Under the pieces are notes generated by a model. It was not told the origin of the DNA. It did no database searches and was given only the letters and a program-made list of their open reading frames with translations. DNA of 64,000 bases from Streptomyces sp. NBC_00569 (GTDB lineage Bacteria; Actinomycetota; Actinomycetes; Streptomycetales; Streptomycetaceae). Below, in pieces: positions 37,637 to 45,639 of the stretch. The stretch lies in assembly GCF_036345255.1 (NCBI RefSeq), contig NZ_CP107783.1, forward strand, positions 4,389,501 to 4,453,500, read 5' to 3'. Numbering within the stretch: position 1 is the first letter of the stretch; each line of letters opens with the position of its first letter. Made by a program: the position numbers and the translations under genes.

Positions 37637-38839
37637 TTACGGCCTCGCGTTCGCCGGGTTCCCTGCGTCCGGTATCGGCAGCGGCCGCTTCTCGATCGCC
37701 GCCGCCATCACCTCCGGGAAGAGATCCGGAGTGCACGCGAAGGCCGGTGCCCCCAAGGCCGCGAGCGCCGCCGCGTGCTCCCTGTCGTACGCGGGTGCCC
37801 CCTCGTCGGACAGCGCGAGCAACGTGACGAACTGCACTCCCGACGCCTTCATCGCGCTGACCCGCTTCAGCATCTCGTTCCGGATGCCGCCTTCGTAGAG
37901 GTCACTGATGAGGACGACGACGGTCTCTGCGGGGCGGGTGATCTGCGACTGGCAGTACGCGAGCGCTCTGTTGATGTCGGTGCCCCCGCCGAGCTGCGTG
38001 CCGAACAGGACATCGACCGGGTCGTCGAGCTGGTCGGTGAGGTCGACAACGGCCGTGTCGAACACGACGAGCCTCGTGTTGATGGACCGCATCGAGGCCA
38101 GCACGGCGCCGAACACGGAGGCGTAGACGACGGACGCCGCCATCGAGCCCGACTGGTCGATGCAGAGGATGACCTCTTTCTTCACCGACTGGGACGCGCG
38201 TCCGTATCCGATGAGCCGCTCGGGGACGACCGTGCGGTACTCCGGCAGATAGTTCTTGAGGTTGGCCGCGATCGTGCGGTTCCAGTCGATGTCGTGGTGG
38301 CGGGGCCTGTCGATACGGGCGCTGCGGTCGAGCGCGCCGGTGAGGGTCGCGCGGGTCCGCGTGGCGAGGCGCTTCTCCAGGTCCTCGACGACCTTGCGCA
38401 CGACGGCGCGTGCGGTCTCCTTCGTCGTCTCCGGCATCGCTTTGTTGAGGGAGAGCAGCGTGCCGACGAGGTGCACGTCGGCGTCGACCGCTTCCAGCAT
38501 CTCCGGTTCGAGCAGGAGCGCGGACAGGCCGAGGCGGTCGATGGCATCACGCTGCATGACCTGCACGACGGAGGACGGGAAGTACGTCCGGATGTCGCCG
38601 AGCCAGCGCGCCACGGACGGCGCGGACGCCCCGAGGCCGGCCGAACGGTCACGCCCCCGCCCCTCCTTCCTGTCCCCTCCCCCGTAGAGGGCGGTCAGGG
38701 CGCCGTCCATCGCCGCGTCCTGACCCGCCAGCGCGCGGCCGGTGCCGTCCGCCTCGTCCCCGCCGAGTACGAGCCGCCAGCGCCGCATCCGCTCGTCCCG
38801 GGCTCCCCCGCTGAGCTCGTCCATCTGGTCGACCGCCAT
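37637..38839 (-). CDS. VWA domain protein of the MoxR cluster
   Basis: The 400-residue protein has a helical N-terminal half and a von Willebrand factor A domain from about residue 215. The MIDAS motif is complete: D-Q-S-G-S in ILCIDQSGSMAASVVYAS, a Thr in LGGGTDINRAL and an Asp in VVLISDLYEGG. No transmembrane segment is present, so it is cytosolic. MoxR-associated VWA proteins act with the AAA+ ATPase as chaperone or metal-insertion factors. The start overlaps the DUF5682 stop (TGATG). Confidence 0.87.
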   Translation of the reverse strand: MAVDQMDELSGGARDERMRRWRLVLGGDEADGTGRALAGQDAAMDGALTALYGGGDRKEGRGRDRSAGLGASAPSVARWLGDIRTYFPSSVVQVMQRDAIDRLGLSALLLEPEMLEAVDADVHLVGTLLSLNKAMPETTKETARAVVRKVVEDLEKRLATRTRATLTGALDRSARIDRPRHHDIDWNRTIAANLKNYLPEYRTVVPERLIGYGRASQSVKKEVILCIDQSGSMAASVVYASVFGAVLASMRSINTRLVVFDTAVVDLTDQLDDPVDVLFGTQLGGGTDINRALAYCQSQITRPAETVVVLISDLYEGGIRNEMLKRVSAMKASGVQFVTLLALSDEGAPAYDREHAAALAALGAPAFACTPDLFPEVMAAAIEKRPLPIPDAGNPANARP

Positions 38840-41229
38840 CAGGCCACCCCCACAAGGTCGTTGTCACCCCGGCCGGAACCGGAGCCGGAACCGGAACGGG
38901 ATGTGGCGTCGGCGTCCGCGTCGTCCGTCCCGAGCAGCAGCTGCAGCACGGGCAGCACCGCGTCAGCGCGCGCCCGGTCGAGGCCGGGCCCGAACCCCGG
39001 CGGTGCCGTGCCCACGGCCGCCGTGGGTCCCGCCCCCGCGGGCCCGCGCCGCACCAGCTCGCCCAGCGTGCGGCGCACACCGGATTCGTAGGCGGAGAAC
39101 GTGCGGCGCAGCAGCGGCAGCACGTCCGTGAACGCGTCGGCGGAGACACCCGTCAGCCAGTCGTCGACGAGCGTGAGCAGCCGCTCGTCATGTACGAGGA
39201 GCAGCCCGCCGCCGGAGCCGCCGCCGACGAACCCCTCGATCCAGGCGGCGGCCTCGGCGGGCCCGGTGCCGGGCGAGAGGGCGAGCCCCATCAGCCGCGC
39301 GGCCTCGCCCTCGGCCAGCTGTCCGTCGTCGAGGAGCAGCCGCGCGCACCGCCCGCGGATCACGCCGGCCACGCTGTCGCGTGCGGCGAGGACCCGCAGC
39401 ACGGAGTGCCAGCGGCCTCTGTGTCCGGCCGTCCCGTCGTCCTCCAGGAGCCCCACCGCCGCGTGGACCGCCTCCACGTGGCCGCGCATCTCGGCCGCGG
39501 CGTCCCCGTCGAGTCCCGCGCACGCGGGTGGCAGGCCCACGAAGACGCGCTCGGCGAGACCGGCCGCGACCTCGCTCAGTGCCTGGGTGTCCGTGCCCCG
39601 CACGTCGCCGTAGCGCAGGGAGCGGACGAGGGCGGGCAGGGCCTGGGCGAGATGGCCGACGTCCGCGTCCATCGCGGCGCGGTCGGCCAGTACGCGCATC
39701 ACCACCGGGAGGGCTTCCGGCAGTTCGGCGAGGAGGCAGCGCTCGGCGAGGGCCGTGACGTCGGCGAGGGCCTGTGCGCCGATCGCGTCCGCCTCGGCTC
39801 TGGCGGTGGCGGCCGAGAGCACGGTCGTGCCCCAGACCCCCGCCTCGGCGACGCGCACGGACAACTCGGGTTCCCAGCGCAGCCGCCAGGTCTCCCGGAA
39901 CGTGCCGGTGGAGGCGCGCACGGACCGGGCCGGCTCGCCCCAGCCGACGTCGAGGAGGCGGAGCCGGTGCAGAAGCCGGCTGCGCGCCGCGTCGGTCTCC
40001 TTGCGCAGGTCGAGCTCCAACTCCCGCTCCAAGGGCTCCGGTTTGAGCCGCAGGGAGCGCTGAAGCCGTGTGAGGTCGCGTTGCAGCGGCACGGCGGGCG
40101 CCGCGTCCGGGACCTCGCCGAGCACGTCCCCCACGACGAGCTTGTCGTGGACGAGCGCCAGGGGTACGTCCGACCCCTCGCACATCACGGCGCGGATCGC
40201 GTCCGTCGTCTCGGTCAGCCCGGCCAGCGGACGTCCCCGCATCGCGGCCAGTGTCTCGGCCAGCCGTACCGCCTCGATCACGTGTGCCGAGGACACGACT
40301 CTGTCCTCGTCCCTGAACAGCCCGGCGACCTTGGTCATCCAGCGTTCGACGGGCCGGTCCGGGGCGCTGAACAGATGCCCGTACCAGCCGGGCGAGTCGA
40401 TGCCCGCTCCGTATCCCCCGGCCCGCGCGAGACGGCGGTGCGTCCAGGGCACCCAGGTCATGTCGACCTTGGCCTTGGGCAGTCCCTTGAGGACGGCCCG
40501 GTCCGCGGCGAGGGTCGTCTTCACACGCAGCGCCGGCACGTGCCACGCACCGCACACCACGGCGACCTCGTCCGCGAACTCCTTCTGCGCGGCGCGCAGT
40601 TGAAGGCGCATATAGGCCTCCCGCACGAGGTCCCGCTCGTGCCCCCCGTCCCCGTACTCCTCCCGCAGCGCCCCCATCGCCTCACCGAGCGCCTCGAACG
40701 GCGCGAACGCGTCCCCCGCCCCGGCCCGGTGCTCGACGACGTCCTCCCACCAGCGCTCCGGGTCGTCGTGTCCCGCGGTCTCGGCGAGTACGGCGAGCGG
40801 ATCGACGCGCATCGCTTCCCTGACGTCGTCCCCGCTCTGGTCCTCGCCCTGTTCCCCGGTCCTCTCGGGGTCGTCAGGCGTCGTGGCCTGCGCGCGCAGG
40901 GCCAGGCTGTGCGCCGCCGGCAGGTCGATGAAACGGACCGGCACGCCCCGCTCCAGGGCCCAGCGGATCGCGACCCACTCCGGGGAGAACTCGGCCAGCG
41001 GCCAGAACGCGGAGCGCCCCGGCTCGTCCACGACATGCGCCAGCAGCGCGACCGGCGGCACCATGTCCTCGTCGGCGGCGAGCGACACCAGGGCGTCCGC
41101 CTCGGGTGGCCCCTCGACCAGGACGACACCCGGACCGGCCGCGTCGAGCGCGGCCCTCACAGCCCTGGCCGAACCGGGGCCGTGATGGCGCACCCCCAGC
41201 AGCAGCGGCCCCCTCCCCCGCTCGCTCAT
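38839..41229 (-). CDS. DUF5682 family protein
   Basis: The 796-residue protein matches the DUF5682 family found between MoxR and VWA genes. The N-terminus LLLGVRHHGPGSARAVRAALD, with VLVEGPPEADALV, recalls the EreA/ChaN/TraB-like fold (conserved HHGP and EGP motifs). The middle carries CGAWHVPAL, another conserved His motif, and the C-terminal half is a long helical repeat-like region. A hydrolase-like or metal-dependent activity is possible but unproven. It overlaps moxR by four bases (ATGA) and the VWA gene by one, so all three are coupled. Confidence 0.82.
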   Translation of the reverse strand: MSERGRGPLLLGVRHHGPGSARAVRAALDAAGPGVVLVEGPPEADALVSLAADEDMVPPVALLAHVVDEPGRSAFWPLAEFSPEWVAIRWALERGVPVRFIDLPAAHSLALRAQATTPDDPERTGEQGEDQSGDDVREAMRVDPLAVLAETAGHDDPERWWEDVVEHRAGAGDAFAPFEALGEAMGALREEYGDGGHERDLVREAYMRLQLRAAQKEFADEVAVVCGAWHVPALRVKTTLAADRAVLKGLPKAKVDMTWVPWTHRRLARAGGYGAGIDSPGWYGHLFSAPDRPVERWMTKVAGLFRDEDRVVSSAHVIEAVRLAETLAAMRGRPLAGLTETTDAIRAVMCEGSDVPLALVHDKLVVGDVLGEVPDAAPAVPLQRDLTRLQRSLRLKPEPLERELELDLRKETDAARSRLLHRLRLLDVGWGEPARSVRASTGTFRETWRLRWEPELSVRVAEAGVWGTTVLSAATARAEADAIGAQALADVTALAERCLLAELPEALPVVMRVLADRAAMDADVGHLAQALPALVRSLRYGDVRGTDTQALSEVAAGLAERVFVGLPPACAGLDGDAAAEMRGHVEAVHAAVGLLEDDGTAGHRGRWHSVLRVLAARDSVAGVIRGRCARLLLDDGQLAEGEAARLMGLALSPGTGPAEAAAWIEGFVGGGSGGGLLLVHDERLLTLVDDWLTGVSADAFTDVLPLLRRTFSAYESGVRRTLGELVRRGPAGAGPTAAVGTAPPGFGPGLDRARADAVLPVLQLLLGTDDADADATSRSGSGSGSGRGDNDLVGVA

Positions 41230-42365
41230 ACGCTCACCTCACGGCACGCGCGGTAGAAGTCCTTCCAGCCGTCCCGCTCGCGCACCACGGCCTCCAGGTA
41301 CTCCTGCCAGATCACGCGGTCCGCGGCCGGGTCACGCACGACGGCGCCGAGGATGCCCGCCGCGACGTCCGACGGCCGCAGCACCCCGTCCCCGAAGTGG
41401 GCGGCCAGCGCGAGCCCGCTCGTCACGACGGAGATGGCCTCGGCCGTGGACAGCGTGCCGCTCGGCGACTTCAGCTTCGTACGCCCGTCCTCGGTGACGC
41501 CTGCGCGCAGCTCGCGGAAGACCGTGACGATGCGGCGGATCTCGTCCGAACCGTCCGGAGCGGCCGGCAGGTCGAGGGAGCGGCCGATCTGGTCGACGCG
41601 GCGCGAGACGATGTCGACCTCCGCCTCGGCGCTCTCCGGCAGCGGAAGCACCACGGTGTTGAAGCGTCGGCGCAGCGCGCTCGACAGGTCGTTGACCCCC
41701 CGGTCCCGGTCGTTCGCCGTGGCGATCAGGTTGAAGCCCCTGACGGCCTGCACCTCCTGACCCAACTCCGGTATCGGCAGGGTCTTCTCCGACAGGATCG
41801 TGATCAGCGTGTCCTGCACGTCGGCCGGGATGCGGGTCAGCTCCTCGACCCGGGCCGTCATGCCCTCGGACATGGCGCGCATGACGGGGCTGGGCACGAG
41901 GGCGTCGCGGCTGGGGCCGTGCGCGAGCAGCCGCGCGTAGTTCCACCCGTACCGGATCGCCTCCTCGGGCGTGCCCGCCGTGCCCTGGACGAGCAGCGTG
42001 GAGTCGCCGCTGACGGCCGCCGCGAGATGCTCGGAGACCCATGTCTTCGCGGTGCCCGGCACGCCGAGCAGCAGCAGGGCGCGGTCCGTGGCGAGCGTGG
42101 TGACGGCGACCTCGACGATGCGGCGCGGCCCCACGTACTTCGGCGTGATGACCGTCCCGTCGGACAGCGTCCCGCCGAGCAGATACGTGGCGACGGCCCA
42201 CGGCGAGAGACGCCAGCGCTCCGGGCGCGGCCGGTCGTCCTGCGCGGCCAGCGCCGCGAGTTCGGCGGCGAAGGCGCCTTCGGCATGCGGCCGCAGCGCC
42301 TGCGCGGCTCCCTGATCCCCCGCGGACGCGGCGCTCTTCTCGGTCGGTTCGACGGACACGGTCAT
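41226..42365 (-). CDS. MoxR-type AAA+ ATPase
   Basis: The 379-residue ATPase has Walker A LGVPGTAKTWVSEHL. The Walker-B region around the GMTARVEELTRIP segment is followed by a sensor-1-type NLIATANDRDRGVNDLSSALRRRF, with arginines that fit the finger. MoxR ATPases work with VWA proteins in complex assembly or remodelling. It heads the three-gene operon. Its predicted promoter (42443-42465) faces the SWIM gene promoter in the same 179-bp gap. Confidence 0.88.
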   Translation of the reverse strand: MTVSVEPTEKSAASAGDQGAAQALRPHAEGAFAAELAALAAQDDRPRPERWRLSPWAVATYLLGGTLSDGTVITPKYVGPRRIVEVAVTTLATDRALLLLGVPGTAKTWVSEHLAAAVSGDSTLLVQGTAGTPEEAIRYGWNYARLLAHGPSRDALVPSPVMRAMSEGMTARVEELTRIPADVQDTLITILSEKTLPIPELGQEVQAVRGFNLIATANDRDRGVNDLSSALRRRFNTVVLPLPESAEAEVDIVSRRVDQIGRSLDLPAAPDGSDEIRRIVTVFRELRAGVTEDGRTKLKSPSGTLSTAEAISVVTSGLALAAHFGDGVLRPSDVAAGILGAVVRDPAADRVIWQEYLEAVVRERDGWKDFYRACREVSV

Positions 42366-42442
42366 GGCGATCCCCCTCGATTTCGGCCGGGCTCAGCCGG
42401 CACGTCCCGCACATTCCGAGCACTCGGCCGGGATGTGACTCC

Positions 42443-42465
42443 ACCGTGCACCACGCCACTGACAA
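42443..42465 (-). promoter_or_regulatory. DNA-damage-type promoter in front of moxR (weaker -10)
   Basis: On the minus strand TTGTCAGTG (42465-42457), eight bases, then CACGGT (42448-42443). The -35 half matches the RecA-NDp consensus perfectly. The -10 keeps only the A and final T of TAnnnT. It would give a leader of about 70 bases. Confidence 0.5.
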
Positions 42466-42526
42466 TCACCGGTCACACGCCGTTGACCTGCGCCAACACC
42501 CGCGCCACCGACGATTGTCAGTGGCG
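42454..42526. repeat. Perfect 14-bp inverted repeat between divergent operons
   Basis: CGCCACTGACAATC (42454-42467) and GATTGTCAGTGGCG (42513-42526) are exact complements 45 bases apart. Each arm contains the -35 block of a damage-type promoter pointing outwards. Confidence 0.9.
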
Positions 42527-42544
42527 GGACCTACCTTCGGGAAC
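42515..42544 (+). promoter_or_regulatory. DNA-damage-type (RecA-NDp/PafBC) promoter of the SWIM gene
   Basis: TTGTCAGTG (42515-42523), eight bases, TACCTT (42532-42537): this fits TTGTCRGTG-N8-TAnnnT exactly. The ATG follows seven bases later, so the message is leaderless. Confidence 0.75.
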
Positions 42545-43942
42545 ATGACTCAGCAGGGGGTGCGCTGGACGGCGGACCAGGTGCTGGCACTGGCGCCTGA
42601 CGCCCCGTCACGCAAGGCGGGAAGCAAACTCGGCGTCGCCGGACCGTGGTCGGAGGCGGGAAGTTCGGGCGAGGGGATGGTGTGGGGGCTCTGCAAGGGC
42701 AGTGGCAGCAAGCCGTATCAGACGGTCGTGGATGTCGCGGACGCGGCGGGACCGGCCTACAAGTGCAGTTGTCCGAGCCGTAAGTTCCCGTGCAAGCACG
42801 CACTCGGGCTGCTCCTGCTGTGGGCAGGGGCGGACGGCTCGGTACCTGATGCGCAGACGCTTCCGGACTGGGCGGAGCAGTGGGCCGAAGGGCGCAGGAA
42901 GCGGGCGCGGACCAAGCGGGAGACGGATGCGGCCGGGGGCGCTGCCGCCGATCCCGAGGCCGCGCGCCGCCGGGCCGAGCGCCGTGCCGAACGGGTCACG
43001 GCGGGCGCGGGCGAGCTGGAGCAGCGGCTCACGGACCTGCTGCGCGGCGGCCTCGCCTCGGCCGAACAGGCCGGTTACGGGATGTGGGAGGAGACCGCGG
43101 CCCGCATGGTGGACGCGCAGGCGCCCGGACTCGCCGCGCGAGTGAGGGAGTTGGGAGCGATACCCGCGTCAGGCCCCGGCTGGCCGATGCGGCTCCTGGA
43201 GGAATGCGCGCTACTGCACCTCCTCGACCGCGGCTGGCTGCGCCGCGACCTGCTCCCCGCCGGACTCGCGGCGACGGTCCGCTCCCGCGTCGGGCTGCCG
43301 TCATCGGCGGACGGGCGCCCCACCCGGGACCGATGGCTGGTCCTGGCGCAGTACGACGCGGCCGACAGCCGGCTCACCACCCGCCGAATATGGCTGTACG
43401 GGACGGAGTCCGGCCACACGGCGCTCCTCCTCTCCTACGGGGCGGCGGGCCGCGCCCCGGCGCTCTCGCTGCCGGTCGGCCTCGCGCTGGACGCCGAGCT
43501 CTCCGCGTACGCGGGGGACGGTCAGCTCCGCGCGGACCTGGGCGAGCAGTTCACGGCGCCCGCCCCAAGTCCCGTACGTCCCAAGGGGGCCGGCGTTGCG
43601 GAGGCGGCGGCGCGGTACGGGGACGCGCTGGGCCGCGACCCATGGCTGGAGTCCTGGCCGGTGACGCTGAGCCGGGTCATACCGACCCCGGACGACGCGG
43701 GCGGCGGCTGGCAACTGGCGGACGCGGAGGACGATTCGGCGCCGGCGGATCCGGCGGGAGCGGCTTCGGAACGACTGGCGGTCCCGATCACCCCGAAGGC
43801 GGCGTCCGGGCCCGGGCTGTGGCGGCTGGCCGCACTGTCCGGCGGAGCCCCGGTCACCGTCTTCGGCGAATGCGGCCACCGAGGTTTCACCCCTCTTACG
43901 GCCTGGCCCGAAGGCCCCGGGGAAGCGGTGGCGCTGTGCTGA
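42545..43942 (+). CDS. SWIM zinc finger protein
   Basis: The 465-residue protein carries an N-terminal SWIM zinc finger near residues 60-85 (YKCSCPSRKFPCKHALGLLLLW, the C-x-C-xn-C-x-H pattern). SWIM fingers bind DNA or proteins. The rest is helical with a basic segment after the finger (KRARTKRE) and no other recognised domain. The ATG at 42545 was chosen for the -10 element seven bases upstream. It pairs with the DUF5691 gene downstream, and the divergent moxR operon is its usual neighbour. Confidence 0.87.
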   Translation: MTQQGVRWTADQVLALAPDAPSRKAGSKLGVAGPWSEAGSSGEGMVWGLCKGSGSKPYQTVVDVADAAGPAYKCSCPSRKFPCKHALGLLLLWAGADGSVPDAQTLPDWAEQWAEGRRKRARTKRETDAAGGAAADPEAARRRAERRAERVTAGAGELEQRLTDLLRGGLASAEQAGYGMWEETAARMVDAQAPGLAARVRELGAIPASGPGWPMRLLEECALLHLLDRGWLRRDLLPAGLAATVRSRVGLPSSADGRPTRDRWLVLAQYDAADSRLTTRRIWLYGTESGHTALLLSYGAAGRAPALSLPVGLALDAELSAYAGDGQLRADLGEQFTAPAPSPVRPKGAGVAEAAARYGDALGRDPWLESWPVTLSRVIPTPDDAGGGWQLADAEDDSAPADPAGAASERLAVPITPKAASGPGLWRLAALSGGAPVTVFGECGHRGFTPLTAWPEGPGEAVALC

Positions 43943-44004
43943 CGAGCCGGACGCCGAAGACGACGGAGACACCCGGACGGGCTCATTCCATGGAGAGGAG
44001 CGAC

Positions 44005-45639
44005 ATGAACGGCCCTTCGACCGCCGACGCCACGAGCGCCGGCATCACCGCCACCGGTGACCCATGGGAAGAGCTGGTCACCGTGGCCCTGCTGGGAACG
44101 GACCGGCGGACGCCACCAGAGCACTCGACCGGCGTCGACGCACCCACCGCGCTGCTCGACGCCGCCGCCGTACAGACCGTACGACGGCGGGCCGGGCTGC
44201 GGCCGGCGCCCGCTGCCGCGCCCCCGGCACGCGCGGCGGGCGACCCGCGGCCCCCGCTCCCGGCCCCCGCGCGGCGCAGACTCGCGATGCTGCTCACCGA
44301 CCGCCCCGGCTCCGGAGGCGGCCGCCGCGGAACGGCCCCCGACCTGATGGAGCTGCTGCCCCAGTGGCTGGCCGGGGCCAACGCACAGGGGTACGCGGCG
44401 CCCCCGGATCTCCTCCCCGCGCTCCTCGACGCGGCCCGCGGGCGCACGGATCTGCGGCCGCAGGCCCTCACGTTCGCCGGCCCGCGCGCGCTGTGGCTGG
44501 CCCGGCTGAACCCGGACTGGAAGTTCGCGCTGCGCTCGACCCCCGGTGGCGGGACAGCCCTCCCGGCGCCTGGTGATGCGGCCGACGTGCGGCGTCTTTG
44601 GGAGGAGGGCCTGTTCGCCGAACGGGTCACGCTCCTGGCAACGGTACGTGCGCACAGCCCGGCAGCGGCACGCGAACTGCTCGCCACCACCTGGTCCGCC
44701 GAGCGGGCAGAGGACCGGCTGATGTTCCTCGACTCGCTGCGGTCGGGGCTCACCGACGCCGACGAGCCGTTCCTGGAACAGGCGTTGTCCGACCGCAGCC
44801 GCAACGTCAGAGCCACCGCCGCGGAGCTGCTCTCGGCACTCCCCGGTTCGGCCCTCGCGGCCCGGATGGCATCGCGCGCCGCCTCCTGTGTCGCCGTCGA
44901 CCGCACCCAGGGCGCGGCGACGATCACCGTCGAGGCGCCGCACGAGTGCGACGCGGGCATGGAGCGCGACGGCGTCGTCGCCAAGCCACCGACAGGCCGG
45001 GGCGAACGGTCGTGGTGGCTGGGGCAGTTGGTCGAGGCGACGCCGCTCGGCGGCTGGACCGCGCGGTTCGGAGGCCGCACCCCGGAAGAGATCGTCACCT
45101 TGCCGGTGGCCGACGACTGGCAGGGCGAGCTCCACGCCGCCTGGTGCCGGGCCGCGGTGCGCCAGCGGGACGCCATATGGTCGCGCGCACTCCTGGGCGC
45201 GCCCGCGTCACCGGATGCCGGGGGCCCCGGCGCCGTATCGCTGTCCGAGCGGGCGAAGCTTCTCGGCGCGCTGCCCGACGGCGAACGCGCCGCGTGGGTG
45301 GCGGGGTTCATCGCGACGCACGGCCTGTCCGAGGCGTTCCAGTTGCTCGGGGTCTGCGCCCAGCCGTGGGCCGAGCCACTCGGGCGGGCAGTGGTGGACG
45401 CGCTGAACATCGCGCGGGACGCGGGCAGTTACCCCTGGAGCTTCAGCGGCGTCATGGGCCTGGCCGAACGCTGCCTGGATCCCGCGGAGGCGTCCCGCCT
45501 CGACGGCCTCACCGCCACCCCGGACGAACCGGAGGACGCGGCCCCCGGAGCCGGCAGCTACTGGTCGGAAGCGTTCCAGCGCCTGGTCAGCACATTGCGC
45601 CTGCGGCAGGCGATGCGGGACGAGTTGAGAGGCACGTAG
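44005..45639 (+). CDS. DUF5691 family protein
   Basis: The 544-residue protein opens with WEELVTVALLGTDRR and matches the DUF5691 family, which co-occurs with SWIM, MoxR, VWA and DUF5682 genes. It is cytosolic. The middle shows LSDRSRNVRATAAELLSALPGSALA, a HEAT-like repeat, suggesting a helical scaffold. ATG 44005 has AGGAG five bases upstream; ATG 43990 in frame is the alternative. The gap to the SWIM gene is 62 bp. Confidence 0.82.
   Translation: MNGPSTADATSAGITATGDPWEELVTVALLGTDRRTPPEHSTGVDAPTALLDAAAVQTVRRRAGLRPAPAAAPPARAAGDPRPPLPAPARRRLAMLLTDRPGSGGGRRGTAPDLMELLPQWLAGANAQGYAAPPDLLPALLDAARGRTDLRPQALTFAGPRALWLARLNPDWKFALRSTPGGGTALPAPGDAADVRRLWEEGLFAERVTLLATVRAHSPAAARELLATTWSAERAEDRLMFLDSLRSGLTDADEPFLEQALSDRSRNVRATAAELLSALPGSALAARMASRAASCVAVDRTQGAATITVEAPHECDAGMERDGVVAKPPTGRGERSWWLGQLVEATPLGGWTARFGGRTPEEIVTLPVADDWQGELHAAWCRAAVRQRDAIWSRALLGAPASPDAGGPGAVSLSERAKLLGALPDGERAAWVAGFIATHGLSEAFQLLGVCAQPWAEPLGRAVVDALNIARDAGSYPWSFSGVMGLAERCLDPAEASRLDGLTATPDEPEDAAPGAGSYWSEAFQRLVSTLRLRQAMRDELRGT

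Follow-up and report, generated by a model that had tools for sequence, protein, structure and literature searches.

What a Streptomyces does with two divergent operons that bring together a MoxR-type AAA+ ATPase, a VWA protein and members of the DUF5682, SWIM zinc-finger and DUF5691 families, and whether these five genes act as one system, is the question raised by a locus of Streptomyces sp. NBC_00569. The locus lies in a stretch of 64,000 nucleotides, hereafter called the window, which spans positions 4,389,501-4,453,500 of the 10.32-Mb single-contig genome (NZ_CP107783.1). Within 37637-45639 of the window, VWA, DUF5682 and MoxR genes are read leftward, and SWIM and DUF5691 genes rightward, from a shared gap between MoxR and SWIM. 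A first-pass annotation, made from the sequence alone, had placed five genes here in this divergent arrangement around a 179-bp gap, and both Pfam matches and measurement of the gap (exactly 179 bp) bear this out. Its interpretation of the genes as one module under damage-type control holds as well, while its view of them as an undescribed system does not, since the Deinococcus operon ddrTUVWX was already named in 2017 and Escherichia coli possesses yehLMPQ. By sequence comparison, the five-gene set is the Streptomyces counterpart of ddrTUVWX and a relative of yehLMPQ, and it very probably constitutes a damage-regulated module in Streptomyces. The link between the Streptomyces, Deinococcus and E. 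coli operons is new.

In Deinococcus taeanensis, the gene order is SWIM-DUF5691-MoxR-(78 aa)-DUF5682-VWA. The operon of this species has been designated ddrTUVWX, with a 78-residue open reading frame (ORF) located between ddrV and ddrW (PMC9510100), and from the position of this small ORF ddrT is therefore assigned to SWIM, ddrU to DUF5691, ddrV to MoxR, ddrW to DUF5682 and ddrX to VWA. All five families are thus common to the window and to Deinococcus, but the single operon T-U-V-W-X is replaced here by two divergent operons, T-U and V-W-X, with their internal order kept. A damage-type site is found upstream in both cases, with RDRM/DdrO control in Deinococcus and RecA-NDp sites in the window. 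The D. taeanensis upstream stretch contains TTACGCCAGAAACATAA, which agrees with the printed RDRM consensus TATGYYHTTARCRKA (PMC8533742) at 12 of 15 positions, so that RDRM-like is the fair term; the pattern used to search the locus was written down after the upstream stretch had been read, with 0.00 matches expected in 18 kb. Reading of the 179-bp gap in the window revealed no RDRM (DdrO) site, RecA-NDp sites being present instead. According to those parts of Blanchard et al. (2017; PMC5552922) that were accessible, radiation induces ddrT of D. deserti more than 10-fold and Deide_18720, 18710 and 18690 more than 5-fold, Deide_18700 (ddrW by position) not being named there. Similar fold changes were obtained against an irrE mutant, i.e. 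the induction is IrrE-dependent. The same parts report an RDRM upstream of every homolog present, the lack of the operon in D. radiodurans and D. geothermalis, and the 2017 naming of ddrTUVWX with its function given as unknown.

The damage-type promoters proposed in the first-pass annotation were found on both sides of the gap. The consensus TTGTCAGTGGC-N6-TANNNT of RecA-NDp (PafBC-type) promoters is matched toward SWIM, and the site toward MoxR carries CA for TA. In PMC2375139, which also quotes this consensus, the UV-inducible recA promoter of Streptomyces rimosus is given as TTGTCAGTGGC-N6-TAGggT after Ahel et al. (2002), with the spacing of the window motif. Since the SWIM start codon lies approximately at the expected transcription start (42515-42547), the SWIM mRNA is probably leaderless. 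Conservation of both sites was examined in the best 80 of 570 loci from the genus and its close kin, of which the 76 holding both MoxR and SWIM were used; the four dropped loci (L035, L039, L068, L103), all short or contig-end stretches, lack SWIM or both SWIM and MoxR. Exact TTGTCAGTG occurs toward MoxR in 75/76 loci and toward SWIM in 68/76 (71 and 64 in a narrower first count), and TGTCAGTG takes its place in the remaining ones, eight of them on the SWIM side. All 143 copies of TTGTCAGTG in 1,561,858 bases fall inside gap windows totalling 41,367 bases. In sites taken from all 80 loci, both the MoxR side (77 sites) and the SWIM side (70 sites) invariably have A at +18 together with T at +22, and the SWIM side has an invariant T at +17 in addition; columns +18 and +22 played no part in the motif selection. 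As the loci are related, these counts measure conservation and not 76 independent events. At nine type-1 loci outside the genus (L159-L167), the motif is absent from the promoter in all nine, L161 having TTGTCGGT 0.44 kb upstream with the rest of the motif missing.

The same promoter type also marks other genes of this organism. In the 10.3-Mb genome, TTGTCAGTGGC-N6-YANNNT gives 22 sites compared to none in a backward control; two of these are the gap sites, and the pattern had been widened from TA to YA after the second site of the window was known (15 TA, 7 CA). Judged by Pfam and position, DNA repair, replication or DNA-binding genes stand behind about 8 of the other 20 sites. Genes preceded by a site include recA, thyX, holB (DNA polymerase III delta'), ogt (O6-methylguanine methyltransferase) and ung (uracil-DNA glycosylase), an rpsF-like ORF with ssb in second place, and an ORF followed by ClpP. 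Further sites precede DEAD helicase, YjbR, methyltransferase, FAD oxidoreductase and DUF4132 genes, and an LTD protein gene lies 0.7 kb from another one. A Pup-ligase-family gene, regarded as pafA, is followed at a distance of 2.4 kb by two adjacent WYL genes, which on the grounds of their position presumably encode PafB and PafC. This promoter type is well conserved in Streptomyces, and one study reported the mycobacterial motif as unconserved there. In the literature searched, which did not extend to supplementary tables such as the S. coelicolor list of PMC2375139, the module was not found among listed members of a RecA-NDp/PafBC regulon. RecA-NDp sites were additionally observed before genes for a HEPN protein (SAV_6107-like, L014:1572-2126), TerD (L016:1501-2181), a pentapeptide protein (L013:1530-2231) and an HU-like protein (L024:1574-1873). 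TnpB/Cas12f-like transposon genes begin about 30-35 nt after the start of a perfect site in L003, L004 and L022, and these three elements may respond to DNA damage because their genes sit directly behind it.

PafBC-type sites are, moreover, associated with additional MoxR-DUF5682-VWA modules, which is likewise a new observation at the level of sequence. A second (type-2) module of the same genome has the order DUF4132, large ORF, MoxR, DUF5682/VWA fusion (1257 residues) and a last ORF with a CxC-x5-CxH stretch, and a RecA-NDp site lies 69 nt before its first gene. Among the type-2 modules compared (that of this genome and L169-L174), such a head site is present in 5/7, L170 and L174 being without it. 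Another genome of the genus (L175) carries an E. coli-type DUF4132-MoxR-DUF5682-VWA-SWIM operon with a site directly before its estimated start. A third type, a very divergent VWA-MoxR-DUF5682 arrangement in other genomes of the phylum (L176, L177, L178), has sites 2.5-2.7 kb from the first recognised gene in two of three loci, and their connection to the module is putative.

That the five genes belong together, as the first-pass annotation had supposed, is supported by co-occurrence. In 246 genomes drawn evenly across the phylum, DUF5682 is found in 19 and DUF5691 above cut-off in 17; in all 17 DUF5691 genomes, a DUF5682 gene lies no more than about 4 kb away on that contig (Fisher p 2.4e-24). 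Five of the 17 DUF5691 matches are confined to the initial part of the profile, ending by position 210. No genome of the 246 has DUF5691 alone above cut-off, three showing sub-cut-off matches only, and DUF5691 is lacking from two of the DUF5682 genomes, G124 and G204. All eight genomes of the genus among those listed carry both. In a plasmid collection, 16 records cover at least 80% of DUF5682 and 15 of them also have DUF5691, recognised by tblastn in 14 and by annotation in Deinococcus; the Fusobacterium record is without it. In Hymenobacter sp. HDW8, SWIM and DUF5691 are fused into a single 1009-residue protein, which argues for the two acting as a unit. Gene order is identical in all 76 loci for the genes found; some of them lack DUF5691 or VWA, usually at a contig end, and L040 lacks VWA with 1.7 kb left. 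A DUF5682 protein is also encoded by an unannotated 14-kb faecal contig filed as 'Bacteriophage sp.' (H60, MT835988.1), which may be a misfiled bacterial contig.

In E. coli K-12, the related genes are ordered yehI-yehK-yehL-yehM-yehP-yehQ. The MoxR-DUF5682-VWA order is that of the window, with 40% and 36% identity of YehL and YehP to the window MoxR and VWA, respectively, but DUF4132 (yehI) stands in place of DUF5691. DUF4132 was absent from the five genes and the two flanking ORFs scanned; the type-2 module elsewhere in the genome does contain it. YehQ resembles the window SWIM protein in the zinc finger alone (comparison E 2.7). No LexA-type or otherwise recognised damage box was detected in the upstream stretches scanned in E. 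coli, Rhizobium or Hymenobacter. NorQ/NorD and RavA/ViaA likewise pair a MoxR-kind AAA+ protein with a VWA partner, NorQ being a sequence match of the window MoxR. In contrast to these, the window pair is accompanied by DUF5682, SWIM and DUF5691 and has EE at the presumed Walker B. The earlier statement that SWIM, DUF5682 and DUF5691 have no known biochemical role stands within the literature searched, where no function was found for ddrTUVWX or yehLMPQ either.

The AlphaFold2 model of DUF5682 (pLDDT 86.6, pTM 0.81) together with fold comparisons displays an N-terminal alpha/beta domain (about 1-262) followed by a helical part. The HHGP and CGAWH motifs highlighted in the first-pass annotation are indeed invariant across a 52-row alignment, and the N-terminal domain has H15 H16, E39, R203 E204, G227 and H230 as invariant residues; in seven sequences from a wider spread, HH plus G and H are kept and the remaining motif letters vary. 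In the modelled N-domain, conserved His and Glu residues and a GAxH-like motif succeed one another as in the TIKI superfamily. The domain shows a weak to moderate likeness to the TraB/TIKI/PrgY fold and may be of this kind, a possible kinship that is also new. Compared with the 2His/2Glu set of TIKI, His, Glu and His are conserved, while the position of the first Glu is seemingly occupied by Arg14. Unlike TraB/TIKI proteins, DUF5682 possesses a long helical C-terminal part, and the Pfam TraB profile (PF01963) was not listed for five proteins at E values up to 10. Because of this possibly TraB/TIKI-like N-domain with its conserved His-Glu-His set, DUF5682 is the likely effector of the module; that it would be an effector hydrolase has roughly even chances.

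A motor function of MoxR-VWA pairs is general knowledge of the family, and AAA+ motifs and MIDAS are both present in the pair of the window. Taken as a whole, we regard as evenly poised between right and wrong the reading of the locus as a ddrTUVWX-type damage-induced set consisting of a MoxR-VWA motor, a TraB-like DUF5682 effector and a SWIM-DUF5691 guide. DNA damage would switch the module on via the PafBC-type promoters, PafBC being the presumed regulator here. By analogy with its family, the MoxR ATPase would be hexameric and, with VWA as adaptor, would then act as a motor, exerting pull on a client protein or remodelling it. The hydrolase, which may be a peptidase, would be DUF5682; MoxR-VWA would feed it or switch it, and the helical part of DUF5682 would serve for docking. 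SWIM and DUF5691 as one unit would guide the machine to its target, in the simplest case a protein on damaged DNA. In its most specific form, which is rather improbable, this would be an ATP-driven machine clearing protein from damaged DNA, with SWIM-DUF5691 locating the lesion, a MoxR-VWA ring unfolding the protein bound or crosslinked there and DUF5682 cutting it as a cytosolic TIKI/TraB-type peptidase. If true, bacteria would thereby have their own counterpart of the p97-SPRTN pair of eukaryotes, recruited independently by the PafBC regulon in Streptomyces and the DdrO regulon in Deinococcus. Alternatively, though on the unlikely side, MoxR-VWA might load a metal or cofactor into, or reactivate, a client without any degradation, be it DUF5682 or a repair enzyme encoded elsewhere, as in case of NorQ/NorD. 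MoxR-VWA pairs found in the literature act on enzymes in this way, only midasins and NorQ match the window MoxR by sequence among solved structures (E <= 0.001), and a MoxR-VWA chaperone was already suggested for the Deinococcus operon in the accessible part of de Groot et al. (2009). However, a known cofactor enzyme is absent among the five genes, and DUF5682 itself carries a conserved set of His, Glu and His, which fits an effector.

A general stress module, whose damage promoter would simply be a lineage-specific trait in Streptomyces and Deinococcus with little bearing on its target, would agree with the absence of damage boxes in E. coli, Rhizobium and Hymenobacter and at the nine other actinobacterial type-1 promoters. 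This is nevertheless very improbable, as RecA-NDp and RDRM, two unrelated types of site, precede the identical five genes, and as the diverged modules of the genus retain the RecA-NDp type. The former fact speaks well for a part of these genes in survival after DNA damage, and a damage role is supported by the promoters found here together with the published D. deserti expression data; it may lie in DNA repair or equally in protein quality control, the two functions suggested in the first-pass annotation. A damage-triggered conflict system for anti-phage defence or self-killing, similar to the ternary systems with MoxR and VWA treated by Kaur et al. (2020; PMC7159879), is quite improbable, too. 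The patchy distribution in the phylum (19/246 genomes), the occurrence on plasmid-collection records and a weak bpMoxR profile match (23.3 bits, the cut-off being 27) would be in line with it. Yet PADLOC matches none of the five proteins (E <= 0.001), a relative is missing from the viral collection and found in a single one of 50,697 phage records, and presence in 8/8 listed genomes of the genus with one gene order in 76 loci is atypical for defence islands. Additionally, SWIM, YehL, YehM and TraB are not mentioned in the main text of Kaur et al. With ddrTUVWX, yehLMPQ and the Streptomyces module joined, function becomes testable in easy laboratory hosts, and the TraB-like domain offers a concrete enzyme candidate.

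Table 1 Features of the five-gene locus and of the second module (window coordinates unless a locus is named)
Feature	Position	Strand	Evidence and remarks
VWA (CoxE-like)	37637..38839	-	Pfam PF05762 VWA_CoxE, E 1.6e-60; ddrX / yehP counterpart
DUF5682	38839..41229	-	Pfam PF18934, E 8.6e-302; ddrW / yehM counterpart
MoxR-type AAA+ ATPase	41226..42365	-	Pfam PF07728 AAA_5, E 4e-37; ddrV / yehL counterpart
RecA-NDp (PafBC-type) promoter toward MoxR	42443..42465	-	TTGTCAGTGGC-N6-CACGGT; starts 100 nt before MoxR ATG
RecA-NDp (PafBC-type) promoter toward SWIM	42515..42537	+	TTGTCAGTGGC-N6-TACCTT; starts 30 nt before SWIM ATG
SWIM zinc-finger protein (CSCPSRKFPCKH)	42545..43942	+	Pfam PF04434, E 5.9e-6, and alignment; ddrT counterpart
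DUF5691	44005..45639	+	Pfam PF18944, E 7.9e-178 (profile search from 43939); probable start; ddrU counterpart
Second module	about 7.836-7.850 Mb of the genome; L025:7979-16012 with L002:1402-5175 and L026:788-2953		

The coupling of the genes by overlaps, also proposed in the first-pass annotation, applies to MoxR/DUF5682 (4 nt) and DUF5682/VWA (1 nt), while for SWIM/DUF5691 it is doubtful. Here, a start at the in-frame GTG 43936 would make DUF5691 overlap SWIM, but the ATG at 44005 with GAGAGGAG immediately 5' of it is the likelier start of DUF5691, leaving 62 nt after SWIM; in Deinococcus and Rhizobium, the two genes overlap by 4 nt. The closest protein matches of the window DUF5682 are from Streptomyces, with the top one being 97% identical. 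MoxR contains the Walker A sequence GVPGTAKT, and its presumed Walker B has EE instead of DE in all six aligned homologs, E. coli YehL included. Alignment with four homologs identified the MIDAS residues DQSGS..GGGTD..SD in the VWA protein. DUF5691 is predicted to be all-helical with a HEAT/ARM-like arrangement, based on a structure model (pLDDT 70.8) and fold comparison.
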